Part shown: positions 4,499 to 26,153 of the stretch, piece by piece
How the letters are laid out: each line of letters opens with the position of its first letter
Numbering within the stretch: the first letter of the stretch is position 1
Assembly: GCA_902812405.1 (NCBI GenBank)
Contig: CADDZI010000017.1
Location: 1-42,641 of the forward strand
Length of the DNA: 42,641 nucleotides
DNA from: a bacterium
Lineage (GTDB): Bacteria; Vulcanimicrobiota; Vulcanimicrobiia; Eremiobacterales; Eremiobacteraceae
Direction: 5' to 3'
The notes under the pieces: model-generated
Databases searched by the model: none
Seen by the model: only the letters and a program-made list of their open reading frames with translations
What the model was told of the DNA's origin: nothing
Program-made: the position numbers and the translations under genes

Positions 4499-5035
4499 AT
4501 GAGCTTGGTTCTCATCGAACACTGGTGGACGTTAACCTTACGCGGTCTTTTGGCGATTCTCTTCGGTATCGTGGCCCTGCTCTGGCCGCCGGCAGCAACG
4601 TTTGCCATCGTCTTTCTCTTTGCCGCATTCGCCGTCGTCGAGGGCATTTTTGCGTTGGTCGCATCCTTCGGTTGGGGATTACCCGCGCGGGAGCGCATCC
4701 TCCTGATCGTGACCGGCATCCTCGGCCTGGCCGTCGGGGCCGGTGCCGTGCTGGTGCCGGGCCTTTTGGCGGTCGTCCTCGTCCTCATCGTTGCCTGGTG
4801 GGCGATCCTGACGGGCATCCTGCAGATCATCGTCGCGATCGAATTTCGCAAGCTTGTCCCCAACGACTGGCTGCTCGCGTTGGGGGGCGTCCTCGCGATC
4901 GTCTTCGGCGTTCTCCTCATCTGGCGGCCTTTGGCCGGTATTCTCACGCTGGGCCTGTTGTTTGGTTTCTACGCACTGCTCGCGGGCTTCATCATGACGG
5001 CACTGGGCTTGCGCATGCGGCGGCTCGCGCTCTAG
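4499..5035 (+). CDS. HdeD/DUF308 family membrane protein
   Basis: The protein has about 178 residues and six hydrophobic segments arranged as three similar pairs, typical of the HdeD/DUF308 family. Typical segments are LRGLLAILFGIVALLWP and ALGGVLAIVFGVLLIWRP. E. coli HdeD is linked to acid resistance at high cell density; the role of most homologues is unknown. I chose the ATG at 4499 because GGGGGAGGGG lies directly upstream. An in-frame ATG at 4460 would add 13 arginine-rich residues. It follows the zinc peptidase by about 55 bp and precedes the NicO-like gene by six bp, so the three are probably co-transcribed. Confidence 0.88.
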   Translation: MSLVLIEHWWTLTLRGLLAILFGIVALLWPPAATFAIVFLFAAFAVVEGIFALVASFGWGLPARERILLIVTGILGLAVGAGAVLVPGLLAVVLVLIVAWWAILTGILQIIVAIEFRKLVPNDWLLALGGVLAIVFGVLLIWRPLAGILTLGLLFGFYALLAGFIMTALGLRMRRLAL

Positions 5036-13051: not shown

Positions 13052-14428
13052 TTAGCCTCTATCGCTGCCGACGCCCTCCTGACCGCCTCCCACGTCCGCA
13101 CCGGCCGAATCGCCAGGCTCTTCTTCGCCCTGACCCGCGCCCGCCGCGTCCGGCTCCCCCGACGCGACGGCCCGTTGCAGCTCCTGGAGACGCCGAATAA
13201 GGTCTTCGTCTTCAGCCAAAAGTTCCGGGGTCAACTCGACGCCCGTCTCCTCGGCCGCAATCTCCGCCATGACCGCAACCTGCTCGTACTCCCGCTGCTC
13301 CTCGGCACGCTGGGCCGCCAGCTCGTTCCACTGCTCCTCGCTGTGAATGTCGATGCGCCACCCTGTCAGCTTGGCCGCCAGCCGGACGTTTTGCCCCTCT
13401 TTGCCGATCGCCAAGGAGAGTTGATGTTCGGGCACCACAGCCTCGGCCAAACGCTCGCGCTCGTTCAAGTGGACGGCCACAACCTTTGCCGGCTGGAGCG
13501 CGTTGGCGACGTAGGTTGCCGGATCGGGCGACCACGCAATGACGTCGATCTTTTCGCCGTGCAGCTCCTCGCTTATGTTGTTTACTCGCGAACCGCGCGG
13601 TCCCAAGCACGCTCCGACGGCATCAATGTCCTCTTCATCAGTCCACACCGAGACTTTGGAGCGCGAGCCGGCTTCGCGGGCAACGTCTTTGATCTCGACC
13701 AGGCCCTGCGCGACCTCAGGGACCTCGCTCTGGAAGAGGCAGCGCAGCAGATTGGGATGGCTGCGCGATAGGATGATCTGCGGACCCTTGCTCGTCTTGC
13801 GCACCTCCACGACGTACACGCGGATACGCGATCCGATCCGGTACGTTTCGCGAGGCACCTGTTCGGACAGGGGTAAGATGGCTTCCGCACGGTCCAGCTC
13901 GACGAACATGTTGCGCTGCTCGTAGCGCAGGACCGTTCCGTTGACCATCGTGTTGACCTTTTGATTGAACTCGTCGAACACGACGTCGCGCTCGGCCTCG
14001 CGGATGCGCTGCACGATGACCTGCTTGGCGGTTTGGGCTGCAATGCGGCCAAACTCCTTGGGCGTGATCTCGACGTCGTAGTTGTCGCCGGGTTTGTAGC
14101 CGGGGCCGGCTTCCGCCAGACTGATCTCCACGGCGGGATCGGTGACAGTCTCCACCACGGTGCGGCGGGCGTATACGCGGTAGGATCCGTCGTTGCGATC
14201 GACCAGGACCACCGGATTGCCCACTGCATCCGCCTCGCGGGTAAAATTGCGCTTGTAGGCGGACACCAGCGCCGCTTCGAGGGCTTCGATGAGGGTGCCG
14301 GCCGGCAGGTTGCGGTCGCGTTCGAGGTCTTTGATCGCAGCCAGCAGCTCGGGATTGGGTTGCGCGGGTGCCACCGCCGTCGAACCTTCGGCGGGAGCTT
14401 TCGTTTTGAGCAATTTTCGCGGCGTCAT
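13052..14428 (-). CDS. nusA: Transcription termination/antitermination factor NusA
   Basis: NusA binds RNA polymerase and controls pausing, termination and antitermination. From the ATG at 14428 the protein has about 458 residues. It shows the N-terminal polymerase-binding domain (ELLAAIKDLERDRNLPAGTLIEALEAALVSAYKRNF), an S1 domain (NTMVNGTVLRYEQRNMFVEL), KH domains (ACLGPRGSRVNNISEELHGEKIDVIAW, in pieces) and VVPEHQLSLAIGKEGQNVRLAAKLTGWRIDI. The acidic C-terminal tail is short and simple. An in-frame start at 14479 would overlap the leader hairpin and is unlikely. AGG lies a few bases before the chosen ATG. rimP is not directly upstream as is usual; a promoter and leader hairpin are seen instead. 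Confidence 0.96.
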   Translation of the reverse strand: MTPRKLLKTKAPAEGSTAVAPAQPNPELLAAIKDLERDRNLPAGTLIEALEAALVSAYKRNFTREADAVGNPVVLVDRNDGSYRVYARRTVVETVTDPAVEISLAEAGPGYKPGDNYDVEITPKEFGRIAAQTAKQVIVQRIREAERDVVFDEFNQKVNTMVNGTVLRYEQRNMFVELDRAEAILPLSEQVPRETYRIGSRIRVYVVEVRKTSKGPQIILSRSHPNLLRCLFQSEVPEVAQGLVEIKDVAREAGSRSKVSVWTDEEDIDAVGACLGPRGSRVNNISEELHGEKIDVIAWSPDPATYVANALQPAKVVAVHLNERERLAEAVVPEHQLSLAIGKEGQNVRLAAKLTGWRIDIHSEEQWNELAAQRAEEQREYEQVAVMAEIAAEETGVELTPELLAEDEDLIRRLQELQRAVASGEPDAAGAGQGEEEPGDSAGADVGGGQEGVGSDRG

Positions 14429-14459
14429 GGTAACCTGGTTCCTAGCCCCTAACATTGCA

Positions 14460-14485
14460 AAAGGAGTGGGTGGTGCCACTCCTTT
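14460..14485 (-). terminator. Hairpin in the nusA leader (attenuator-like)
   Basis: AAAGGAGTGG (14460-14469) and CCACTCCTTT (14476-14485) form a perfect ten-bp stem with a six-base loop. On the minus strand the stem is followed by TGC after a run of four U, so it looks like a weak intrinsic terminator placed between the nusA promoter and the nusA start. The nusA operon is autoregulated by termination in E. coli, so an attenuator is plausible here. The U tract is short, and an RNA-stabilising role is possible. Confidence 0.55.
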
Positions 14486-14500
14486 CGGACTTCAGCTAGC

Positions 14501-14529
14501 AGTATACCACACCGGAACGGCGTTTGCAA
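14501..14529 (-). promoter_or_regulatory. Sigma70-type promoter of the nusA-infB operon
   Basis: On the minus strand, -35 TTGCAA (14524-14529) and -10 TATACT (14501-14506) are spaced by exactly 17 bp. Transcription would begin near 14494, placing the ten-bp hairpin within the first nucleotides and nusA about 65 nt downstream. It is among the clearest promoters in the window. It explains how the operon is expressed although rimP is not adjacent. Confidence 0.65.
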
Positions 14530-14545
14530 GCACGGTATTGCGGCA

Positions 14546-14753
14546 GTAGCGGTCGCTCTTGCGCGATCGAGAGAACGCCACGCGTTGAGGCCAACATGTT
14601 ACGTTCTGTCGGCCGCGCAAGCGCGGCCGCTACAGATCCCTGACCTGCGCCGCCAACGCGGCCGCTACAGATCCCTGACCTGCGCCGCCAACGCGGCCGC
14701 TACACGTCCCTTCTACGTGCGGTAGCGGTCGCGCTTGCGCGATCGAGAGAACG
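14546..14753. repeat. Cluster of dispersed palindromic repeats with a 35-bp tandem duplication
   Basis: Three copies of an imperfect palindromic element occur here. Two are in plus orientation, starting GTAGCGGTCG at 14546 and 14722, both followed by TTGCGCGATCGAGAGAACG. One is inverted at 14601-14633. Next to the inverted copy a 35-bp unit starting TACAGATCCCTGACC is repeated twice in tandem (14631-14665 and 14666-14700). The elements lie in the non-coding gap between the nusA promoter and the secreted-protein gene. Related copies occur at 21856-22025, 28069-28152 and 40843-40965. Confidence 0.8.
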
Positions 14754-14786
14754 TGACACCTTGGGGGTGTACCGACGTGGTGCGTT

Positions 14787-16010
14787 CTAAGGCTTCCCGC
14801 GGGTGAAGAATGCCTCGGCCGCGGCTTCCGTAAAACGGCGGGCGGGAAGACGGGGCGCCCAGAGCAACCCGTCACCGGCGCACCAGGTGTCCTTTTGCCG
14901 CTCTCCGGTTGCGTCGTCCAACAAACACCAGGTGATGTTCGTGCTGACGGGGAGGACCGAGACGCCGCGCAGACCCTGCAGTGCGCTCATCAGGCGCGAG
15001 AAAGCATAACGCGAATCGTAGTGACCGGGCGGAACTTCCTGTTCGGCAATCGTTCCCGCAAAGCCATACGTACCCGTTCGGGCGACCCCGAACGCCGCCA
15101 AGCGGCGCCACTTTTGGGCGTCGTACAGCCGATCTGCTTTGTCGTCGATACCGTAGATCTCCGGAAGGGCCAGCGCGTGGCCGTTGCCCCACGACACCCA
15201 CCAGTGCCAGTACAGGGTCCACCCCGAGCCGCACGACGGGGGCCGACGGTTGAAGGAGCATTCGAGATCCCCAAAGTCCAAAAGCGGCAACCGGCGCGAC
15301 AGACGGGTTGTTATGTTGTAGCCGCGGATCCAGTTCACCGTGTCGCTAACCGAACCGAACCCGGCCTCTGCATCCAAGGCCCCGATGGCCCAGGCGGTGT
15401 GAGTCAAACCCAGCCGCTCGAGGTCCTGATCCACGGCCACCACAAGGCGCCCCCAGACCTTGCCCGCCGTTAGCATGCTGACCGGCTCGTAGTTGTTATT
15501 GTTAACGCCCAGGGCCAGCACGTAGAAGTCACCGTTCTTTGCGCACCCATGCAGGCCTCGGGCAAAGGCGGTTACGGCCCGCTCCATATCGGCGTTCACC
15601 ATCCACGGACCCAATCCGTTGGGAGGATTGTGCAGAGGAGACCATGCGTTGTGACCCCACTGGCGCGCCGGCTTGCTGTACCGGGATTCTCCGAAATCCA
15701 AGATAACGAGACCACCGCGCGCACTGCCAGCCTCCATGCATCCGACCCGCCGGTAGGCCTGGAGAAACTCCGCGTTGGTCGGGAACTCCTCGGGCGCCAT
15801 GTCAATATAGTAGGACGTGGTCAAGGCCGGGGCGGCAAGCGTGGCGAGCGGTGCATCGGAGGCTTTTGCGACGCTCCAGGCGAGCGCAGACAGCCACCAC
15901 GCAATGCAGACCGCCCCGCTCAGCCCGACGAGCCCCTTGACCTCCCTCGAACCCTCGGGAGTGTGCCGGCGCGCGCTACGGCAGATCAACAATGGCCTTA
16001 ATGATCGCAT
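14787..16010 (-). CDS. Secreted or membrane-anchored protein of unknown function
   Basis: This is a 407-residue protein with one hydrophobic N-terminal segment (about residues 27-50, GLSGAVCIAWWLSALAW) followed by a large globular part, so it is probably exported or anchored in the envelope. The globular part has several cysteines, among them GCMEAG, HGCAKN, LECSF, PSCGSG and WCLLD, which would suit disulfides outside the cytoplasm. It is rich in tryptophan and aromatic residues (YWHWWVSWGNG). The stretch VLALGVNNNNYE followed by GRLVVAVDQDL recalls glycoside-hydrolase-like barrels, but I cannot name a family. The ATG at 16010 overlaps the dacB end by 35 bp, suggesting one operon with dacB. 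Confidence 0.7.
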   Translation of the reverse strand: MRSLRPLLICRSARRHTPEGSREVKGLVGLSGAVCIAWWLSALAWSVAKASDAPLATLAAPALTTSYYIDMAPEEFPTNAEFLQAYRRVGCMEAGSARGGLVILDFGESRYSKPARQWGHNAWSPLHNPPNGLGPWMVNADMERAVTAFARGLHGCAKNGDFYVLALGVNNNNYEPVSMLTAGKVWGRLVVAVDQDLERLGLTHTAWAIGALDAEAGFGSVSDTVNWIRGYNITTRLSRRLPLLDFGDLECSFNRRPPSCGSGWTLYWHWWVSWGNGHALALPEIYGIDDKADRLYDAQKWRRLAAFGVARTGTYGFAGTIAEQEVPPGHYDSRYAFSRLMSALQGLRGVSVLPVSTNITWCLLDDATGERQKDTWCAGDGLLWAPRLPARRFTEAAAEAFFTRGKP

Positions 16011-17460
16011 CTTGTGCCCGATACACCGGACGCAGCGGCCCCAGCACGTCGTTGAACATGATCGAGAAAATCATGAGGCCGCGTCGGCGGCTCAACGCGT
16101 AACCCGAAATCGTCGAGACATGCCAAATGTACCCGTCCTTGGCGCGCACGCGGCCGGCGGCATCCGTGCCGTGCAGATGGCGGCGCACGGTTCCCTCGAT
16201 GCCGGCGCGCGCCAGCGAGGTGACGTACGCGCAGCCGCCGGCGCGCCGGGCTTCCCAGCGCAAGATCGTGACCAGGTCGCGCGGTGTGATGCGGTCCCCC
16301 TGTGAGAGGCCGGACCCGTCACCATTGTCGATACTGGCGGGATCCAGACCCAGCCAGCCGATGAAGCGCCGCTCGGCGGCGGCCCCGCCATCAAACGACC
16401 CGCGCTGGCCGAACGCGGCAACGGGCAGCATCTTGAAGAGGTGCTCAGCGATGAAGTTGTCGCTGGGCGGCATCATCCGCCGGACAAGGTCGATGAGCGG
16501 CACTGAATCGTGTGTCCATACGACCATCGCGCCCGGATAGCGCACCGCAAGGGGCGCCGGCAGGGGCCGCTGATCCTCCACGTCGCGCACGCCGTTGTCC
16601 GGCACGGGGCCGACGGCCGCACCGCCCACTGTCACCCCGGCGTCTGCAAGCATCTCGGACAACACGGCCGCCGTCTGGTCGGTTGTGCTGTCAACGGCAC
16701 AGTGCAACGTCACGGGTTGTGCATCCATGGGGAGATGGCCGACAACGTCGATGGCTGTGCTTCCCGGAGATCGGAAGCAATCGGCATCCGCCGCGCCCTT
16801 GGGAGGACTGGTCACGCCAACCGAGGTGACCGTCATCTCTCCCGGGTCGCGTTCCAAGGTTGCCCGCAACGGATCGCCGCTGCGGACGCCGGGCCTCACG
16901 GTGACCGCCACAGTCCCTTCGTCAATCGCCAGGGCTTCGATTGGCGGCTGGTAATAGTATGGCATGTCGTCCCAAGCCCAGCCGCCGCCGTAGCGCTGGT
17001 CATCCCAGATCGACGTGTCCGCCAGGACGGTGCCCGAGACTTTCGTGATGGCCGCCGAACGGACGGCCGCAACCGCTTGGGCGAGATCCGCCCGGGTCAA
17101 CACTGGGTCCCCGCCACCCACGAGAATCAGGTCTCCCTGCAGCACGCCACCATTCACAGAGCCGCGGGCCACCAGCGTCGTCCGAAAACGAAAATCGCTT
17201 CCCAGGTACGCCAACGCGGCGGCTGCATCGAGCAGCTTGAAGTTTGATGCCGGTGCAAACTCGCCATCGGCGTTGCGCTGCACGAGAATGCGGCCGGTCG
17301 CCGCATCTTCGACTACCACGCCCAGGCGGGCGCCGCGCGCTGCGCGGCTCTGCGCGACGCGCTCCACGACTGCTTGGAGAATGCGGGCGTCGCGGGCTGT
17401 GGGCCGGGGAGTGGCAGGCGCAGGACACAGAGTCAGCGCCAGACCGAGCGCCAAAAGCAT
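15976..17460 (-). CDS. dacB: D-alanyl-D-alanine carboxypeptidase/endopeptidase, PBP4 family (S13)
   Basis: DacB-type proteins trim peptidoglycan peptides in the periplasm. The 494-residue protein has a signal peptide (MLLALGLALTLCPAPATP). The catalytic S-x-x-K motif is at residues 72-75 (ASNFKLL) and the SDN motif at 333-335 (PPSDNFIAEHLFK). The third motif reads K441-D-G443 instead of the usual KTG, followed by WHVSTISGY. The extra inserted domain between motifs one and two is present, as usual in the S13 family. The ATG at 17460 is preceded by a GC-rich hairpin in the 71-bp gap to the receptor gene. The KDG change may alter activity, although lysine and glycine are kept. Confidence 0.93.
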   Translation of the reverse strand: MLLALGLALTLCPAPATPRPTARDARILQAVVERVAQSRAARGARLGVVVEDAATGRILVQRNADGEFAPASNFKLLDAAAALAYLGSDFRFRTTLVARGSVNGGVLQGDLILVGGGDPVLTRADLAQAVAAVRSAAITKVSGTVLADTSIWDDQRYGGGWAWDDMPYYYQPPIEALAIDEGTVAVTVRPGVRSGDPLRATLERDPGEMTVTSVGVTSPPKGAADADCFRSPGSTAIDVVGHLPMDAQPVTLHCAVDSTTDQTAAVLSEMLADAGVTVGGAAVGPVPDNGVRDVEDQRPLPAPLAVRYPGAMVVWTHDSVPLIDLVRRMMPPSDNFIAEHLFKMLPVAAFGQRGSFDGGAAAERRFIGWLGLDPASIDNGDGSGLSQGDRITPRDLVTILRWEARRAGGCAYVTSLARAGIEGTVRRHLHGTDAAGRVRAKDGYIWHVSTISGYALSRRRGLMIFSIMFNDVLGPLRPVYRAQDAIIKAIVDLP

Positions 17461-17477
17461 CAGGCAGGTCTATCCAG

Positions 17478-17510
17478 GTGTGGGGCCGCCAGAAACCGGC
17501 AGCCCCACAC
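17478..17510 (-). terminator. GC-rich hairpin between the TonB-receptor gene and dacB
   Basis: GTGTGGGGC (17478-17486) pairs with GCCCCACAC (17502-17510); the stem can be extended by three more pairs after a mismatch. It sits between the end of the receptor gene and the start of dacB. There is no U tract, so it may reduce read-through, stabilise the upstream mRNA, or act as a factor-dependent terminator. Confidence 0.45.
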
Positions 17511-17531
17511 GATGGCCCAGTGCCGGCTCAT

Positions 17532-20369
17532 TTAGAAGCGGCGCCCGAAGAAGAACTCGTAGAGGCGTGCGTCTTGCGAGACTTTCTGGTTTATCCACGT
17601 ACAGCTGGGAACCCCCGGCTGTCCGAGTCCGATGCAACCCGCTGGCGAGCCGGGCACATGGACTCCGGAGAGAGGGCCATTGTATGGGAAACAACCCGTT
17701 CCGGCTCCATCGACAACGCACGGCAAGGTACCCTGCAGGTTGTTGGTGAGGTTGCTACCTCGGATGCCAACAATGTAGTTCCCGTTGGGGCCGAAGCTCT
17801 TCGAGATCGTCGTGTTGAGAATGAAGTATCCTGGCCCTTTGCCTTCCGGTTGGGCGATCTGGGTCCCCTGACTATTGAGAACGGCAATGTTGTAGAAACC
17901 ATCAAACTCGTAATACAAGAGGGGAATGATGTGAAAGCCGCTGCTGTGCAGATCGGCGAGGAATGTACCACCGAAGAGGGGGACAAAGCTCTGCCGGACG
18001 TACACGCCCTCATTGACCAAATTGGACGGCAATGGGAAGTTGTAGTAACTGATATTTCCCGATGTTGCCGTGGTCCAGTAGTTGTCGTAGGAACCCGAAA
18101 TCCAAAATGCGGCCCCCGTCGGCCTTGGGTCATCATGGTTGAGGCCGAATTCGACACCGAACGCCCGTATCTTCAGGCCGTTGGTCGGCACATCTTCCTT
18201 CGAGTAGATCGGGTCTCCATTTGGGTCGTACCCGATGATGGGGTTATACTCCTCGAAGTAATTGTCGGTGTGGCGCAGCCACGGCCCGATCCGCAGGGAA
18301 GTCGTCGCATCAAACTGGTGCTCCCACATGAGGTCGGCACTGTGGTTGATCTGGGGTGCGACAGCAGCACCGGGTTGTAAAGGATTGTAGAAGGTCGGGG
18401 TTGTGTGATTGCCGCTGATGCGCCAGACAAACTCCGTCCCGATGAAACTCTGCGTGTCGCCCCATGAATAGCGGATGACGTCGTTCGGGCCGGCGCGGTA
18501 GGTTCCGGCAAATGTCGGCGCCCACGCCCCGACGGAGATGGAACCGTGGGAGCCCGTAAAACTGCCCGACGCAGGAATGGTCGGTAGGCCGTACCATTCG
18601 CGCTGGTAGCGGACCCCGGGCTCCAGGGTGAACCGTCCGGCATTGATCGAGCTCTGGACGTAGATGTAGGGGATATGTGTCGGTATATCGGTGAGGGCAC
18701 CGTAGTATGCCATACCCGGCCAGCGGCCGGTGTTCGGGTTGATGGAAGCAAGATTGAAGACCCCGCGATAATTTTGATCGTATTCCTGGCCCACCCCGGC
18801 TTTAAGCGAGAAGTGCGAGTTGGGCGTCGTCGTGTAATCAAGCCCGGCCAGGTACATGCGGGAGTTGCGGTCCTGGTAGTAATCTCCCGTGTCGTGGGTG
18901 CAGATATAACCCGAGCCGACCGGTACCGGCGTATTCGGCTGATACGGCAAAGGCGGGCAGCCCGACTGTAGCGGCGATTCCGGGAAACCCGGATTGTTCG
19001 GATCGGTCAGCACCTGATCGAACAAGTACTGGTTGAAGTTTTCCGCCAGTCGCAGCGAGAGACTGGAGTTTTGCCCCAGGATGTGGTTCCACTGTAACTT
19101 GCCCAATCCGCCGTAGTGCTTCGTATAGACGCCACCGCCGTTAGGCAGTGCAGCAAAGTACAAGCCTGCCGGGCAAGGCTGGCCGTTAGGGGCAATGCCG
19201 CCTTGACCGTAGTCACCGTTGGCATTGGTGGGATCGGGCTGGTAACCTTGACAGGGTTGCATTTCGAGCAGGGGTGAACCCGGCTGGGCGCGCCACAGCA
19301 GGTAGTCGTTGCTTTGGTCGTAGAGGCTGTTCTCCAGCATGAACTGGACATCGTTACCGGGGTTGGGTTTATAGTGGAAGTTGGTGACGACGTCTCGCGT
19401 CATGACGGGCCCGGCGTTGGTCGAACTGACACCGGATGGACCATACACCAGGTTGATGTACGTGTTTTCTCCGTAGTTGTATTCGTTTTCCGAATTGACC
19501 CCGCCGAAGCCCAGGTAGTACGAGAACCGGTTATCCGGTGTCGCGCCGCCGTATTCCAGCGTCAACTTATGGTTGAACTCGGGACTTGTCATGCCGAAGA
19601 CCGCCTGGCCGAAGGGCGGATACGTTCCCACCTTGACGACCGAGTTGATGACGCCCGTTCCGTTGGCTGCGGCACCTGCATAGAGCCCGCCGGTGTACAC
19701 CTCGAGGTTGGCGATCCCGATGTTCGAGAGGTTGGTGGTGAAGAAGCCGGTGATGCGCTCGGCGATCGGTATGCCGTCAAACTCGTAGCCGTTGTCGGTA
19801 TCCTGGCCGCCTCGAATGGAGGGCTCGGCAGGGAACCCGCCGCCAATCGGTACGAGGCCTGGAACGGTCGCCGTGTACTCGTACAGCGTCTTTTGGAGAA
19901 AATCTCCGCCCATCGCCGCGGTGAGATGTTGGCCTGTGACGTTGTAGACGTCGGCGCCTGTATGCGGTTGCACGAGGTTCGACGACGTGGCCACGACGGG
20001 TACTTTGGCCAGCGTACGGACGGCAGGCAACAGGCGCTCGTCCACCACGTTCGTCTCGTCTTGGTAGACCGTTACGCCCTGCGCGACTGCCGTCTCGTAG
20101 CCGTCCAGGGAGAAGGTCAGGATGTAGGTATCCGGAATCAGTTGCTGCAAGGAGTAAAAGCCGGCACTGTTGGTGTATGCGGTTGCCGTTCCCGACGGTG
20201 CGCTGGCGCTCACTTTCACGCCCGCCAGCGGCGCCCCCGACTGGGCGTCCCTTACGGTTCCGGTGACCGTACCGGTCGTACCGGCCTGCGCCGGCATCCC
20301 GCACCAGAGGCCTAGCCCAAAGAGAAGACCGATCGCCGCCACCACGCGGCAGACACGCAATGCACCCAT
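17532..20369 (-). CDS. TonB-dependent receptor with carboxypeptidase-regulatory-like domain
   Basis: This is a 945-residue outer-membrane receptor. It has a signal peptide cleaved probably after AQA near residue 29, then a CarboxypepD_reg-like beta-sandwich (about 32-115; GTVRDAQSGAPLAGVKV, FYSLQQLIPDTYILTFSLDGYE). A plug domain follows (about 125-245; PSIRGGQDTDNGYEFDGIP, LEVYTGGLYAG). The rest is a large beta-barrel rich in aromatic and asparagine residues, ending with the C-terminal phenylalanine of an outer-membrane barrel (YEFFFGRRF). The substrate cannot be inferred; such receptors take up siderophores, vitamins or glycans. A ribosome-binding site (AAAGGGAG) lies eight bases before the ATG. 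It is divergent from lysA. Confidence 0.92.
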   Translation of the reverse strand: MGALRVCRVVAAIGLLFGLGLWCGMPAQAGTTGTVTGTVRDAQSGAPLAGVKVSASAPSGTATAYTNSAGFYSLQQLIPDTYILTFSLDGYETAVAQGVTVYQDETNVVDERLLPAVRTLAKVPVVATSSNLVQPHTGADVYNVTGQHLTAAMGGDFLQKTLYEYTATVPGLVPIGGGFPAEPSIRGGQDTDNGYEFDGIPIAERITGFFTTNLSNIGIANLEVYTGGLYAGAAANGTGVINSVVKVGTYPPFGQAVFGMTSPEFNHKLTLEYGGATPDNRFSYYLGFGGVNSENEYNYGENTYINLVYGPSGVSSTNAGPVMTRDVVTNFHYKPNPGNDVQFMLENSLYDQSNDYLLWRAQPGSPLLEMQPCQGYQPDPTNANGDYGQGGIAPNGQPCPAGLYFAALPNGGGVYTKHYGGLGKLQWNHILGQNSSLSLRLAENFNQYLFDQVLTDPNNPGFPESPLQSGCPPLPYQPNTPVPVGSGYICTHDTGDYYQDRNSRMYLAGLDYTTTPNSHFSLKAGVGQEYDQNYRGVFNLASINPNTGRWPGMAYYGALTDIPTHIPYIYVQSSINAGRFTLEPGVRYQREWYGLPTIPASGSFTGSHGSISVGAWAPTFAGTYRAGPNDVIRYSWGDTQSFIGTEFVWRISGNHTTPTFYNPLQPGAAVAPQINHSADLMWEHQFDATTSLRIGPWLRHTDNYFEEYNPIIGYDPNGDPIYSKEDVPTNGLKIRAFGVEFGLNHDDPRPTGAAFWISGSYDNYWTTATSGNISYYNFPLPSNLVNEGVYVRQSFVPLFGGTFLADLHSSGFHIIPLLYYEFDGFYNIAVLNSQGTQIAQPEGKGPGYFILNTTISKSFGPNGNYIVGIRGSNLTNNLQGTLPCVVDGAGTGCFPYNGPLSGVHVPGSPAGCIGLGQPGVPSCTWINQKVSQDARLYEFFFGRRF

Positions 20370-20566
20370 GACACACTCCCTTTGCCCTACAAAGCGGCCC
20401 TGCGCCTACCCATTCAAGGCCCGCAGTGGCCCCGCACTTCTGCATCGCCGTGGTGGACCCTGTCGGTTGTCGGCAATCGAACCGAAGACGGCAAGACCGG
20501 CCGGCATGCTTGGGGAAGCCGGACTTGGGGACAAGACCATAATGACGCAATGCCTTCGAAACTCGG

Positions 20567-21829
20567 GTGAGCCTTTTGTCCGTCTCTGACAAGGCGCTCT
20601 CGCAGGCTGCGCGACGTTTTGGCACTCCCCTCCTAGTCCTCGACGAGCACCGTCTGCGACGGGACATGCGCGCCATGCGCCAGGCTTTTTCCACCTCGCA
20701 CTGGCAGTGTCGGGTTTTCTATGCTGCGAAAGCCTTGGCTCTGAAAACTGTCGCCCGCATTGCTCACGAGGAGGGACTGGGCTTTGACGCCTGCTCGGAG
20801 GGAGAATTGCGGACGGCGTTGGAGGGCGGAGTACCGGCCGACGCGTGCTTGCTGCATGGCTGTGCAAAAACGGCGACGGAGCTGGAACTCGCGGCGCGCG
20901 CGGGGATTGCTTACGTTGTTGTCGACAACGAGTCCGAAATCGATGCCTTGGCGCGGGCGGCGAGAAGCGCATCTGCGGGGTCGCGACGGATCCCGGTTCT
21001 GGTGCGCGTCAACCCGGCGATCCCGGCTCCAACCCAGGCTCACCTGCAGACCGCAGCGCCGGAATCCAAGTTTGGATTCCCCATCACCGACGGCTCAGCG
21101 CGGCGCGCAGTACGCCGCGTTGCCTCTGAGGCGGTCCTTGAATTTTCCGGCTTACATTGCCATATCGGATCGCAAATTGCCGACCTGGATGCCTACGTGG
21201 CGGCAACCGCCGAAGTGGCGGCGTTGGTCCGAGTCCTCGCGGACGAGGACAGACTGCAGTGCCACGCGCTAAACCTGGGAGGGGGCCTGGCCGTGTACCC
21301 GGACAGCGCCGTATCGCCGACCCCCGCGGCGTGGGCCGAGGTCTTGTTCAACGCCCTTGAGCGCCACCTTGCAGGTTACGAACCCCGGCCATGCGTTTTC
21401 GTCGAACCCGGCCGATCGGTTGTCGCACGCTCGGGCTCGACCCTGTACACGATTTGCGTTCGCAAGCAGCTTGCCGACGGCAGCCGGGCGCTGATCGTGG
21501 ACGGTGGTCTCTCCGACAATCCACGACCCGCTCTCTACGATGCCTGCTATACGGTCAGTGTGCTGGAACGCGCCGGTGAAGCACCGGATGGGAGGTATAC
21601 AGTCTTCGGCCGGCACTGCGAAACTGATCTGCTCTTTGCCGATGTTCCCCTGCCCAATCCGCGACCCGGCGACATCCTGCGCGTCCACGACACCGGAGCC
21701 TACACCTACAGCATGGCCAGCAATTACAACCGCTTTCCGCGACCCGCCGTCGTGCTCGTTGACGGCGAGGAAGCCCGGCTCATCGCCCGCCGGGAGACGG
21801 TCGAGAGGGTTTTGGAGCTGGACGTCTGA
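20567..21829 (+). CDS. lysA: Diaminopimelate decarboxylase LysA
   Basis: LysA removes CO2 from meso-diaminopimelate to make lysine, using pyridoxal phosphate. The 420-residue protein has the fold-type III motifs: the PLP lysine K55 in VFYAAKALALK, HCHIGSQI, LNLGGGLAV, EPGRSVV, and the second active-site segment GRHCETDLL and TGAYTYSMASNYN. The conserved stretch reads GRHCETD instead of the usual GPxCESxD, so a related carboxylic amino-acid decarboxylase is possible, though the length and all domains fit LysA. The start is GTG at 20567; the ribosome-binding site is weak. It is divergent from the receptor gene, with a 197-bp gap in which I see no recognisable riboswitch. Confidence 0.85.
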   Translation: MSLLSVSDKALSQAARRFGTPLLVLDEHRLRRDMRAMRQAFSTSHWQCRVFYAAKALALKTVARIAHEEGLGFDACSEGELRTALEGGVPADACLLHGCAKTATELELAARAGIAYVVVDNESEIDALARAARSASAGSRRIPVLVRVNPAIPAPTQAHLQTAAPESKFGFPITDGSARRAVRRVASEAVLEFSGLHCHIGSQIADLDAYVAATAEVAALVRVLADEDRLQCHALNLGGGLAVYPDSAVSPTPAAWAEVLFNALERHLAGYEPRPCVFVEPGRSVVARSGSTLYTICVRKQLADGSRALIVDGGLSDNPRPALYDACYTVSVLERAGEAPDGRYTVFGRHCETDLLFADVPLPNPRPGDILRVHDTGAYTYSMASNYNRFPRPAVVLVDGEEARLIARRETVERVLELDV

Positions 21830-22026: not shown

Positions 22027-22530
22027 TCATGGACGATGCTTGCGTTCCAAGTCCCAGCGCGGGTCGTAGTAGAGTGTCGCACGCTTGATCGCCGCATAAG
22101 GAATGGGCGTCGGGCCGGCGTACCGGTCGCGTATCACCACCGCGTTGTCGTCGCTTTCCTCGATCGCGCCGAGGAACTCCGTTCGATTCCTGATCCGCAG
22201 CGTCGTAATGACGCGAACCATGCGGTTGCGAAAGCGCCGGTAGTGCTCCGGCCTCACAAGAGGCCGTTCGACCCCCGCTGAGGAAACCTCGAGCGTAAAC
22301 AGCGGAACCGGCGGCGGCAGCGCCTCGATGCGGCGCTCGACGTAACGTGAAACCGCCTCGCAGAGATTGGCGTCCACGCCGCCTTCCCGGTCGATGACCA
22401 GGCTGATGACAAACGCGTCTCGTTCGCGGCGCACGGTGCAGCGCAACAGTTCGATATCCGCAAACGCGGGTGCGTCCGTCAGGCCGCGACAGATGGTCTC
22501 TAGCTGCCTTTGCACTGAGACCCCCGTCAT
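22027..22530 (-). CDS. rimP: Ribosome maturation factor RimP
   Basis: RimP binds the 30S subunit early in assembly. The 167-residue protein begins MTGVSVQRQLETICRGL and has the N-terminal alpha/beta domain (ELLRCTVRRERDAFVISLVIDREGGVDANLCEAVSRYVE, in pieces), the LEVSSAGVERPL motif, and the C-terminal SH3-like domain (RMVRVITTL, EFLGAIEESDDNAVVIRD). It starts with an ATG whose last bases form the stop of pxpA (ATGA). It lies 7.5 kb away from nusA, its usual neighbour. The length and motifs are normal, so there is no sign of decay. Confidence 0.93.
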   Translation of the reverse strand: MTGVSVQRQLETICRGLTDAPAFADIELLRCTVRRERDAFVISLVIDREGGVDANLCEAVSRYVERRIEALPPPVPLFTLEVSSAGVERPLVRPEHYRRFRNRMVRVITTLRIRNRTEFLGAIEESDDNAVVIRDRYAGPTPIPYAAIKRATLYYDPRWDLERKHRP

Positions 22531-23330
22531 ACAAGATTCTCCAGGTGCGTGAGGCGGACGCCTGCGGTCTCCAAGCGAGCGCGGACGGCCGCCGCAATCG
22601 CAGAGGCCTTGGGTGAGTCGCCATGGATGCAGAGCGTCTGTGCGCGCAGGGCGACGTCTGTTCCGGCGGATGTTTGCACCCGTCCCTCGAGAACGATGCG
22701 ACACGCCTGCCGGGCCGCCTCCTCGGGGTCGAGAATAAGCGCGCCCGGAAGATTGCGCGAGCGCAGGGTGCCATCCGGTTCGTACCTGCGGTCGCAGAAG
22801 GCTTCGTCGGCCGCCCGCAGGCCGTGGCGCCGCGCCGCTTCGGTCAAGCGCGAGCCCGCCAGGCCGACCAAGATGAGGGATCGGTCGAAGCCGGCAATCG
22901 TCGCCGCGATGCTATCCGCCAACGCCGCGTCACCTGCCGCATCGTTGTAGAGCGCCCCGTGAGGCTTGACGTGGGTCACGACAAGCCCACGAACGCGCGC
23001 CAGCGCCGAGAACGCGCCCAGCTGGTAGAGCAGGACATCGCGAAGCGTGCCGGGTGTAAGACGCACCGAACGCCGGCCGAAATGTTCCCGGTCGGGGTAG
23101 GAGGGGTGTGCACCCACCGCCACCCCAAACTTTTTGGCGGCGTCCATCGCGGCGGCCATCGTTGACGGAGAACCGGCATGGACGCCGCATGCAATGTTGG
23201 CTGAGGTGATGTAGCGCATCAAGATCTCGTTGCTCTGCTCAGCCTGCTCACCCTGTCCGGCCGCACCCTCCCCGAGATCGGCATTCAGGTCGATAGCCAT
23301 CTCCATCGGGAAAAGTGGGGTTGCCGTCAT
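22527..23330 (-). CDS. pxpA: 5-oxoprolinase subunit PxpA (LamB/YcsF family)
   Basis: PxpA works with PxpB and PxpC to hydrolyse 5-oxoproline (pyroglutamate) to glutamate with ATP. The 267-residue protein has the family motifs IDLNADLGEG at the N-terminus, ANIACGVHAGSP, GVAVGAHPSYPDREHFGRR, HVKPHGALYNDAAGD, EAFCDRRYEPDGTLRSR and CIHGDSPKA. It overlaps the upstream pxpBC gene (ATGA) and the downstream rimP gene (ATGA), so all three should be translated from one message. Length and motifs are complete. Confidence 0.95.
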   Translation of the reverse strand: MTATPLFPMEMAIDLNADLGEGAAGQGEQAEQSNEILMRYITSANIACGVHAGSPSTMAAAMDAAKKFGVAVGAHPSYPDREHFGRRSVRLTPGTLRDVLLYQLGAFSALARVRGLVVTHVKPHGALYNDAAGDAALADSIAATIAGFDRSLILVGLAGSRLTEAARRHGLRAADEAFCDRRYEPDGTLRSRNLPGALILDPEEAARQACRIVLEGRVQTSAGTDVALRAQTLCIHGDSPKASAIAAAVRARLETAGVRLTHLENLV

Positions 23331-25042
23331 GCCGGCACCTCGGCAAGTGGAGCATTCGCATCGCGCATGACCTCGGCCAGCGCGTGGGAAGCCTGCGCCA
23401 GCGTGACCTGCCGAAACGTCACCTCATCGCCGGTCCGCAGCTGACCGCAGCGCGGCAGGTCTGCGCTGATGACGACGAAGGGTACTGCGTAGCCGCCCGT
23501 CGTTTGGTGCTCCGCCAGCAAGATGATCGGCAAACCCTCGCTCGTCATCTGGACGCACCCGGCAGACATTCCTGTCGACAGCACGCTGAAGGCCTCGCCT
23601 CCAGGCAGCGGTTGCCCTTCCAGGCGCACTCCTTGCCGGTTTCCCACGGGCGAAACTTTGAACGTTTGCGCAGTCAGCCTGCCCATAACATCGGTGCTGG
23701 ACACACTCCCCGGCATCCAGGGCATGCCGGGAACAACCCGCAAGCCAACGCGATGCGTCCATTTCGGACGCAATGTTTCGGAAAACTGCCGAAGCACCAC
23801 GGCCTTCGGACTTGCCGGCTCCGGTCTGACCTTGCATAAGCGATCACCACGCCGCAAACTGCGGCCTTCGAAGCCCCCGAACGCACACCCCACATCGGTG
23901 CTGCAGCTACCCAGTATCGGCGGCACCGCAAACCCGCCCCGCACGGCGACATAGGATCGTGCGCCGCACTGCGCCGGCCCTATCCGAACCACGGAATCGC
24001 GCGGCGCCACATGCGACCGCCACAAGGCTTTGGGCACGCCATCCACCGTGAGGTCTGCAGCGGCCCCGGTCACGGCAACTACCAGGTCGGTGAGCGCGCG
24101 GAAGGCGCACCCGGTCAGCGTTACCTCCAAAACAGCCGTACTCTGCGGATTGCCGACGAGACGGTTGGCGACCCGGCCGCTGAACCAATCGGCCCAGCCG
24201 GCCGGGGAAACGCCCATGACTCCGACATGCCGCCTCCCGTTATCCTGGACCGTTGTGAGAATACCGGGCTCCAGCATCTCGATAGCCAGCTCCGCACTCG
24301 GGATGCTCGACTCTCTGAATCCCCGCACCCTGTGAGCCGCCCCACCAGCTTCAACTGGTTTCTCCGGCCGGGCGCCGGCCGGATGAAAGTGCACGCGCTG
24401 GCCCGGCTGCAAGAGACATGGCGGGTTGCGCAAGGGATCGAAGATCTGCGTGTTTGTCCGTCCCAGGATACGCCAGCCGCCGGGCGTGGCGCGGGGATAG
24501 ATGCCGGCCTGGCCGGCTGCAATGGCCACACTACCCGCCGGCACGCGGGCCCGCGGCGAGGGCAGGCGGGGAACAAACAAGCGCGGGGGCACGCCGATGA
24601 GATACGGAAAGCCGGCCGTGAAACCCAAGAACGCAACCGTGTACTCGCCGGAACAAAAGAGAGCGATAACCTGGTCGCGCGCCAGGCCGGTGTGTTCAGC
24701 GATCGTGTCGAGGTCGAGCCCCTTGTCGGGAGAGAAGTCAACAGCAATCTGCATCACAGGGGCTTCTGGCAGCTGAACGGGGTGCTCGTCTTCCAGGGCA
24801 CCCCGCATGGTCGCCATGACCGTAGCCAGAGGCACGGTTGCGGGATCGAAGCGCACCATAACCGAGGCGTAGGCGGGCACGATGTCCAGCACCGTATCCC
24901 CAAGAAGCTGCTGCAGGCGGGCGTGCAGCGACCAGACGCGCTTCTGCACCGACCGGCCAAAGGCGTCGCCCAGCACAGCGGTCACGGCCGCGTCGCCGAT
25001 GGGTTGAATGCGTGCAGGTGTGCGTGCAATGCGTTGAGCCAC
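23327..25042 (-). CDS. 5-oxoprolinase PxpB-PxpC fusion protein (KipI-KipA)
   Basis: This 571-residue protein fuses two subunits that are usually separate. Residues 1-235 match the PxpB/KipI half (VMVRFDP, FLGFTAGFPYL at 138-148, RLPSPRARVPAGSVAIAAGQAGIYP in pieces, TPGGWRILGRT). Residues from about 252 match PxpC/KipA (IEMLEPGILTTVQDNGR, SPAGWADWFSGRVANRLVG, AVTGA, SSTDVMGRL, SAGCVQMTSEGLPIILLAEHQTTGGYAVP, in pieces). The link between them is a short hydrophilic stretch. It starts with GTG at 25042 with GAGGAG upstream. It is the first gene of an operon ending in rimP. Such fusions are known in other bacteria. Confidence 0.93.
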   Translation of the reverse strand: MAQRIARTPARIQPIGDAAVTAVLGDAFGRSVQKRVWSLHARLQQLLGDTVLDIVPAYASVMVRFDPATVPLATVMATMRGALEDEHPVQLPEAPVMQIAVDFSPDKGLDLDTIAEHTGLARDQVIALFCSGEYTVAFLGFTAGFPYLIGVPPRLFVPRLPSPRARVPAGSVAIAAGQAGIYPRATPGGWRILGRTNTQIFDPLRNPPCLLQPGQRVHFHPAGARPEKPVEAGGAAHRVRGFRESSIPSAELAIEMLEPGILTTVQDNGRRHVGVMGVSPAGWADWFSGRVANRLVGNPQSTAVLEVTLTGCAFRALTDLVVAVTGAAADLTVDGVPKALWRSHVAPRDSVVRIGPAQCGARSYVAVRGGFAVPPILGSCSTDVGCAFGGFEGRSLRRGDRLCKVRPEPASPKAVVLRQFSETLRPKWTHRVGLRVVPGMPWMPGSVSSTDVMGRLTAQTFKVSPVGNRQGVRLEGQPLPGGEAFSVLSTGMSAGCVQMTSEGLPIILLAEHQTTGGYAVPFVVISADLPRCGQLRTGDEVTFRQVTLAQASHALAEVMRDANAPLAEVPA

Positions 25043-25292: not shown

Positions 25293-26153
25293 ATGGCAAC
25301 GGATATTCACGGTGTTCGGCATTTTCTGGCCTGCTCACCACGGACGGGAAATACCTGGGTCCGTCAGCTCTTAGCCGACAGCTTGTACTTGACATCCTAC
25401 CCTGTTCATCGCGCCACGGACGTGCCGTGGGACGATCTACCGCCTCATTGTATCGTCTCGCTGCACGAGCATGTCTCCGAGGACTTCTACCGGTGTCTCG
25501 CGAGTCGCGGCTTCAAAGTCTTGGTTACCGTGCGACACCCCTTGGACACCCTCATTTCGATTTTACACTATGCACAGCATGAACCCAAGACAGCGCTGTG
25601 GTTGGCCGGGGAGGGGGGGGACGAATCTAGGCTGTACGGGGTCGGCCCCATGGATCCCGCCTTCCTGACGTACGCTTGCGGTCCCAGGGGGGCGGCGCTC
25701 TTAGGCATTAGCGCGGAATGGTTGCCCTATGCCTCGGCGACCGTTCGCTACGAGGAGTTATGCCGCGATCCGATCCTGAAGCTACGCCAGCTGCTCGCGG
25801 CCCTCGGCCTTACGCCGGCACGCCCCCTTGATGCGGTCACGGCTGAGAATACGCTGACAGCGCTACGGAATAAGAATCCCCACGATGTCCACCATTTTTG
25901 GCGCGGCCAACCCGGGTTCTGGCGGCGTGTGCTCACCGCGGAGGTTGCGGAGGCAATTTGGAACCGGCACTATGTTCTCTTTCAGACGCTGGGATACAGC
26001 TGTGACCCGGACCCAGCGCTGACCGCCCAGCAAGCGCGGTACAACTGGTGGGCGGATGACGTGGGCTCCGGGAGCGGGGAGCGTGGCCGCTCCTTAGCAC
26101 GCTATGATCGGCGACCCAGCAGCCCATCATCGGCGCGGCGACTGCGATCGTGA
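25293..26153 (+). CDS. Sulfotransferase domain protein (PAPS-dependent type)
   Basis: The protein of about 286 residues carries the two PAPS-binding signatures of the Sulfotransfer_1 type: SPRTGNTWVRQLLA near residues 15-28 (5'-phosphosulfate loop) and VTVRHPLDTLIS (3'-phosphate binding). A later helix YEELCRDPILKLRQLLAALG is typical of sulfotransferases. The acceptor is unknown. The ATG at 25293 gives a natural N-terminus; upstream in-frame starts would add a proline/arginine-rich stretch that looks non-coding. The C-terminal 30 residues (GSGSGERGRSLARYDRRPSSPSSARR, split) look low-complexity. The 250-bp gap to pxpBC holds no gene that I can support, and a TTGACA at 25092 lacks a matching -10 box. 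Confidence 0.8.
   Translation: MATDIHGVRHFLACSPRTGNTWVRQLLADSLYLTSYPVHRATDVPWDDLPPHCIVSLHEHVSEDFYRCLASRGFKVLVTVRHPLDTLISILHYAQHEPKTALWLAGEGGDESRLYGVGPMDPAFLTYACGPRGAALLGISAEWLPYASATVRYEELCRDPILKLRQLLAALGLTPARPLDAVTAENTLTALRNKNPHDVHHFWRGQPGFWRRVLTAEVAEAIWNRHYVLFQTLGYSCDPDPALTAQQARYNWWADDVGSGSGERGRSLARYDRRPSSPSSARRLRS

Follow-up and report, generated by a model that had tools for sequence, protein, structure and literature searches.

Why does a nusA gene that lies kilobases away from rimP carry a promoter and a hairpin of its own, and which is older, the separation of the two genes or the element? The question is raised by a 42.6-kb stretch of Candidatus Eremiobacterota DNA (the window) from a family of uncultured bacteria, in which rimP lies on the same strand as nusA, about 7.5 kb upstream of the nusA promoter. 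Four named records with a close NusA are all metagenome-assembled genomes from this phylum. A sequence-only reading of the window had proposed that nusA lost its rimP link and gained a new, near-ideal promoter in compensation, with a hairpin that could allow NusA autoregulation. Downstream of nusA follow ylxR, infB and rbfA (Pfam YlxR, IF-2 and RBFA). The features at the head of nusA are:

13052-14428, minus strand: nusA (Pfam NusA_N, S1 and KH_5), with its ATG at 14428-14426
14451-14462, minus strand: UUUU followed by GCAAUGUU, a predicted weak, interrupted terminator tail, by analogy with longer-tailed relatives
14460-14485, minus strand: promoter-proximal hairpin AAAGGAGTGG-CACCAC-CCACTCCTTT (6-nt loop), a putative relocated attenuator of the rimP-leader type
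14492-14494, minus strand: predicted transcription start region (T14494, G14493, A14492), 7-9 nt past the -10 element
14501-14509, minus strand: extended -10 element TGG-TATACT, with little or no change in TGnTA...T across the 14 family genomes
14524-14529, minus strand: -35 element TTGCAA of the nusA promoter, with TTG unchanged in all 14 family genomes
14530-14790, no strand assigned: GC-rich palindromic repeats bordering the promoter on its upstream side, at the near edge of the DNA inserted between rimP and nusA

That nusA has its own promoter was borne out. The hexamers TTGCAA and TATACT (14506-14501) are separated by 17 bp, within the 16-18 nt of sigma-70-type promoters, a TG stands one base before the -10 element, and the promoter is conserved in all 14 genomes of the family. 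Between 13000 and 17000 it is the only site of such quality, shuffled sequences yielding 0.5 +/- 0.7. The match to the consensus is 9/12, for which near-ideal is too strong a word. A looser consensus promoter scan gave no site for G004, G005, G007 and G009. The minus-strand base at 14494 is T, followed by the purines G14493 and A14492.

The perfect ten-bp, attenuator-like hairpin at the start of the nusA leader is present as described, at 14485-14460, and is one of two in the 42.6 kb with at least 10 Watson-Crick pairs and a loop of 3-8 nt. A covariance model built from 29 hairpins, the window sequence itself among them, scores it at 35.4 bits (E 9.7e-7 for the genome). The GGG/CCC core is complete in 12 of the 14 family genomes; the third G is lost in the window and in G001 (GG/CC only), and the window copy reads GGC, not GGG. 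The tail after the hairpin, TTTTGCAATGTT in the window, is U-richer in G004 (TTTCGTTTCT) and G082 (CTTTTTT). The window's U-run is short, its first three U also belong to the stem, and a terminator scan did not flag the window hairpin and tail. By its appearance the window leader looks like a weaker form, and basal read-through may be high because this copy lost a core G and has four U before GCAAUGUU.

The local fold of the window leader was unexceptional against shuffled sequences (z -1.19, 26 of 200 equally good) and uninformative. Rfam 15 placed nothing in the window at gathering score and, with E values up to 10 admitted, nothing relevant between 14300 and 14640. Its four matches there were to microRNA and snoRNA models far under their gathering scores; the palindromic repeats account for three of them and the hairpin region for one. 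A second regular-expression match in the window, at 26055-26099, was discarded since it is not near nusA. Elsewhere in the window's genome (G000), the leader model has one more match, a weaker one, on contig C38 at 4658-4700 (E 2.8e-4).

Upstream of the promoter and its repeats, the window continues with:

14787-21829, mixed strands: the rimP-nusA insert, four open reading frames
14787-16010, minus strand: open reading frame of 407 aa, no family assigned (in the insert)
15976-17460, minus strand: S13 peptidase (in the insert)
17532-20369, minus strand: CarboxypepD_reg protein (in the insert)
20567-21829, plus strand, opposite to rimP and nusA: Orn/Arg/DAP decarboxylase-like protein (in the insert)
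22027-22530, minus strand: rimP (RimP_N and DUF150_C), last gene of pxpBC-pxpA-rimP
22527-23330, minus strand: pxpA-like gene (LamB_YcsF)
23327-25042, minus strand: pxpBC-like gene (CT_C_D and CT_A_B)

The lost rimP link stands as a separation by 7.5 kb; loss of rimP itself is ruled out, both RimP domains being intact at 22027-22530. The start codon of rimP overlaps the stop of the pxpA-like gene in an ATGA. We take the LamB_YcsF gene to be pxpA and the CT_C_D/CT_A_B gene to be pxpBC, of 5-oxoprolinase. The remaining 13 family genomes have homologues of the two genes upstream of rimP as well. In all 14 genomes rimP, which encodes a 30S maturation factor, thus follows genes with which it would not be expected to be associated. 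Near rimP the covariance model found no match in any of these 14 genomes. Replacement of rimP by a distant copy is unsupported: in the RimP tree the family's RimP groups with that of the sister families f2 and f3 against the rest (99/96), f2/f3 falling inside the family and not beside it, with long branches flagged and an unsure inner order. Judged from this grouping, the family's RimP is most likely native.

Eight relatives were compared for open reading frames (110 aa or longer) upstream of nusA, and none of these was homologous to the insert's reading frames at 1e-5. The repeats at 14530-14790 contain 35-nt direct repeats and 43-nt inverted arms and have 125 matches in their own genome, a dispersed REP/MITE-like repeat family that adjoins the nusA promoter.

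NusA and RimP_N matches were used to compare gene order across 61 genomes, 14 of which make up the window's family. In five of these (G001, G005, G006, G008, G011) rimP and nusA are adjacent, and the window's nearest relative by NusA identity is one of the five. The gap is 0.6-1.1 kb in G004 and G013 and about 7-8.4 kb in G000 (the window), G003, G009, G010 and G012; in G002 and G007 the two genes are on separate contigs. Directly before nusA, the promoter and a GGAGUGG...CCACUCC hairpin are found in 14 of 14 family genomes, and the hairpin motif AGGAGTGG...CCC.CTCCT is invariant or nearly so among them. Where the pair is adjacent, the hairpin starts 55-80 nt past the rimP stop. This comparison, suggested in the sequence-only reading as a way to date the split, overturned the idea of a promoter that arose to compensate for it: the element predates the split, because five relatives with an intact pair share both promoter and hairpin.

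The separation itself occurred more than once. On a NusA tree that covers the family except for G002 (13 genomes) together with seven others, the split label needs to change five times, and strong branch support makes at least four of these changes unavoidable. Upstream of nusA there are at least five kinds of DNA without a common open reading frame (at least 110 aa, 1e-5), namely those of G000, of G003 and G010, of G002, G009 and G012, of G004 and G013, and of G007; in G002 and G007 it runs to the contig end. With at least five unrelated kinds of upstream DNA, the rimP-nusA pair must have opened repeatedly. The older event is the altered placement of leader and rimP in the family ancestor, and the window's split is later. 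The hairpin is not new but, as its form and distribution indicate, an old attenuator of the rimP-leader type that stood before nusA ahead of the split.

In the sister families f2 and f3 a related hairpin AGCGTGGG...CCC[AG]CGCT with a U-rich tail stands before rimP, with promoter-like sequence upstream of it as judged by eye. By the covariance model, the order is leader-rimP-nusA in 42 of the 45 f2/f3 genomes in which nusA was found (that is, without G048 and G049); the leader is thus 5' of rimP there, and before nusA in all 14 genomes of the window's family. The count takes one best match per genome (for G023 the one near nusA out of two equal ones, for G056 one of two copies) and leaves out opposite-strand matches of the same palindrome. 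The exceptions are G025, which has no detectable rimP, and G037 and G059, which have a variant hairpin before rimP. In these last two (L053:12105-12146 and L024:1825-1867, respectively) a GCGCC/GGCGC core replaces GUGGG/CCCAC with pairing kept. G056 has two nusA copies, on contigs C21 and C32, each with upstream rimP and leader, which reflects either a duplication or a mixed bin.

Outside the class the hairpin precedes rimP in 13 of 17 assessable rimP-bearing genomes, 12 by hairpin scan and G079 by the model; G085 (too little upstream sequence), G076 (rimP on another contig) and G077 (no nusA) are not in this count. The four exceptions are G078, with a weak match before rimP (E 0.025), G073 (E 0.22), and G070 and G072, with none there. 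A model match at E <= 0.01 anywhere in the genome was found in 58 of the 61 relatives and in 120 of 148 genomes of the phylum, a figure that includes 55 further genomes of the class (G093-G147) covered by the RNA-model search only.

The stem also shows covariation. In 45 leaders (44 distinct) 93.8% of stem cells pair, a value that is partly by construction because rows were chosen by patterns, hairpin scan or eye. Seven of the 11 stem pairs show two-sided changes, and double-changed cells number 50 against 22.5 in shuffles. What is counted here is sequences and not independent changes; the two-sided ones may go back to a small number of events common to whole families. Leaders of f2 and f3 contribute 15 sequences to alignment A1 and 17 to A3. 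Among the 44 distinct sequences the innermost pair is G-C in 40, C-G in 2 and unpaired in 2 (the window and G001).

Naville and Gautheret (2010, PMC2965389) describe the rimP-leader as a terminator stem GGGc...gCCC that most species have ahead of rimP-nusA-infB. According to that account, rimP was the gene most often found behind a predicted attenuator in a broad survey, and NusA was favoured as the regulator, with RimP feedback as the alternative. The element studied here resembles the form described there in being a short hairpin with a G-rich 5' arm, a C-rich 3' arm, a GGG/CCC core in 12 of the 14 family copies and a T-stretch that is clearest in relatives with longer tails, in lacking a visible antiterminator, and in heading an operon that contains nusA and infB. 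It differs in standing past rimP, directly before nusA, and in the window's GGC for GGG and short U-run (PMC2965389).

Several better-studied systems offer a parallel. The transcript of the rimP-nusA operon of S. agalactiae is reported to stop at a predicted terminator, 31 nt from where it begins, and feedback by NusA was proposed (PMC4448216). That terminator and the putative one here are promoter-proximal, with an end 31 nt after the start there and a predicted one at about +35 to +42 here; in the S. agalactiae operon, however, rimP is named first, and the terminator has RNA-seq support, whereas ours was read from the DNA (PMC4448216). NusA of B. subtilis is autoregulated by NusA-stimulated intrinsic termination in its own leader (Mondal et al. 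2016, cited in PMC12288461). The window leader may be likened to it as a leader of NusA's own operon in which NusA would stimulate termination (PMC12288461), although the B. subtilis leader is about 180 nt long and precedes rimP (ylxS; PMC2965389). The metY-rimP-nusA-infB operon of E. coli is repressed by NusA (literature cited in PMC2965389). The E. coli leader has a comparable GGGC-UUUA-GGCCC followed by U7 shortly before rimP, but its stem is short and weak (-7.4 kcal/mol) and model R1 gave no match. NusA-dependent terminators are described as having distal U-tract interruptions (PMC8060035), and the window tail is interrupted in a like manner. Our literature search returned nothing combining Eremiobacterota with nusA and, among the papers listed, nothing on a leader located with nusA in place of rimP.

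We consider it reasonably probable that the element is a promoter plus a promoter-proximal, NusA-responsive attenuator of nusA-ylxR-infB-rbfA, in the form of a relocated rimP-leader. NusA autoregulation through the hairpin, as proposed in the sequence-only reading, is the explanation we infer to be best, by analogy with B. subtilis, S. agalactiae and E. coli. Transcription would start near 14493, and RNA polymerase would first make the hairpin, which spans about +9 to +34, and next the short, interrupted U-run. Polymerase-bound NusA would stabilise the hairpin or the pause, and a fraction of transcripts would end at about +35 to +42. Through such NusA-aided pausing and release, high NusA would lower expression of nusA-ylxR-infB-rbfA, a negative feedback. 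In the family ancestor the element would have come to lie between rimP and nusA, with rimP joining the end of a 5-oxoprolinase-type operon; rimP now lacks this leader, and nusA has kept promoter and hairpin. As nusA would no longer need rimP upstream, other DNA could settle between the two several times, amounting to 7.5 kb here. The comparison shows that the element is present and conserved, that its stem pairs covary, and where it and the genes lie; the start site, termination, the part played by NusA and the manner of the relocation are inferred.

A different role for the hairpin would be that of a 5'-terminal stabiliser or RNase-processing structure that protects nusA mRNA, for which its position is suitable: some 10 nt separate it from the predicted 5' end, and in the 14 family members it follows the -10 element at a similarly short interval. 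The stem sequence bears on this explanation. Among the 44 distinct sequences the second-innermost pair is G-C in 42, and three further pairs are G-C in all 44. A stabiliser needs no specific stem sequence, yet these G-C pairs are kept, and U-rich tails follow many of the leader hairpins. We regard this role as unlikely.

Quite unlikely, too, is that the hairpin mainly terminates the upstream pxp-rimP transcript and so separates nusA from it. In favour of it are the place of the hairpin 55-80 nt behind rimP in the five adjacent-pair relatives and the fold of nine Eremiobacterota leaders in isolation, at -14.7 to -20.8 kcal/mol; termination of this kind could be a second job of the element. The same hairpin, however, precedes rimP in f2/f3 and outside the class, and the nearest upstream gene end in the window, that of the 407-aa reading frame at 14787, is some 300 nt away.

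The attenuator might instead answer to RimP or another ribosome-assembly signal and not to NusA, as the element precedes rimP in most species and RimP feedback is named as possible in the published account (PMC2965389). Against this, all 14 family genomes have the element at nusA and none has it at rimP, although RimP could still act in trans there. Genomes that lack rimP provide a further comparison: among eight assessable genomes without a match to either RimP domain (G088 and G089, at a contig edge, left out), the leader precedes nusA in three (G025, G062, G071) and is missing there in five (G074, G083, G086 and G092, of one genus, and G091). We consider a response to RimP or a similar signal very unlikely; on balance, the placement of the leader in the family and in the rimP-less genomes favours nusA as the gene that it serves. 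Scarcely credible is the remaining explanation, that the pair split in the window genome and a new promoter and hairpin then arose to drive nusA, which would account for the 7.5 kb with an opposite-strand gene between rimP and nusA and for the latter's own promoter, but not for the alignable promoter and hairpin in five adjacent-pair relatives, nor for the branching of G000 with adjacent-pair G001, G008 and G006 in the NusA tree (96/98).

A leader directly before nusA suggests that this widespread switch serves NusA and was in place before rimP and nusA separated. The wider proposition that the rimP-leader is a NusA feedback device that travels with nusA, rimP passing to other control when the two part, has in our view about an even chance of being right. 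If it is, the family amounts to a gene swap performed by nature, from which the target of one of the commonest bacterial attenuators can be read. As the account in PMC2965389 left the choice between RimP and NusA open, a lineage with the leader beside nusA provides comparative evidence for NusA. To the known rimP-leader attenuator it adds a variant directly before nusA. It also gives an order for the break-up of an operon: first an internal promoter together with its regulator, after which the gene pair can come apart repeatedly.

In the rimP-less genus g60 another strong, conserved hairpin, GATGCGAAAG...CTTTCGCATC, lies just upstream of nusA, at loci L090 (G074), L091 (G092), L092 (G086) and L095 (G083), and is perhaps a replacement attenuator.
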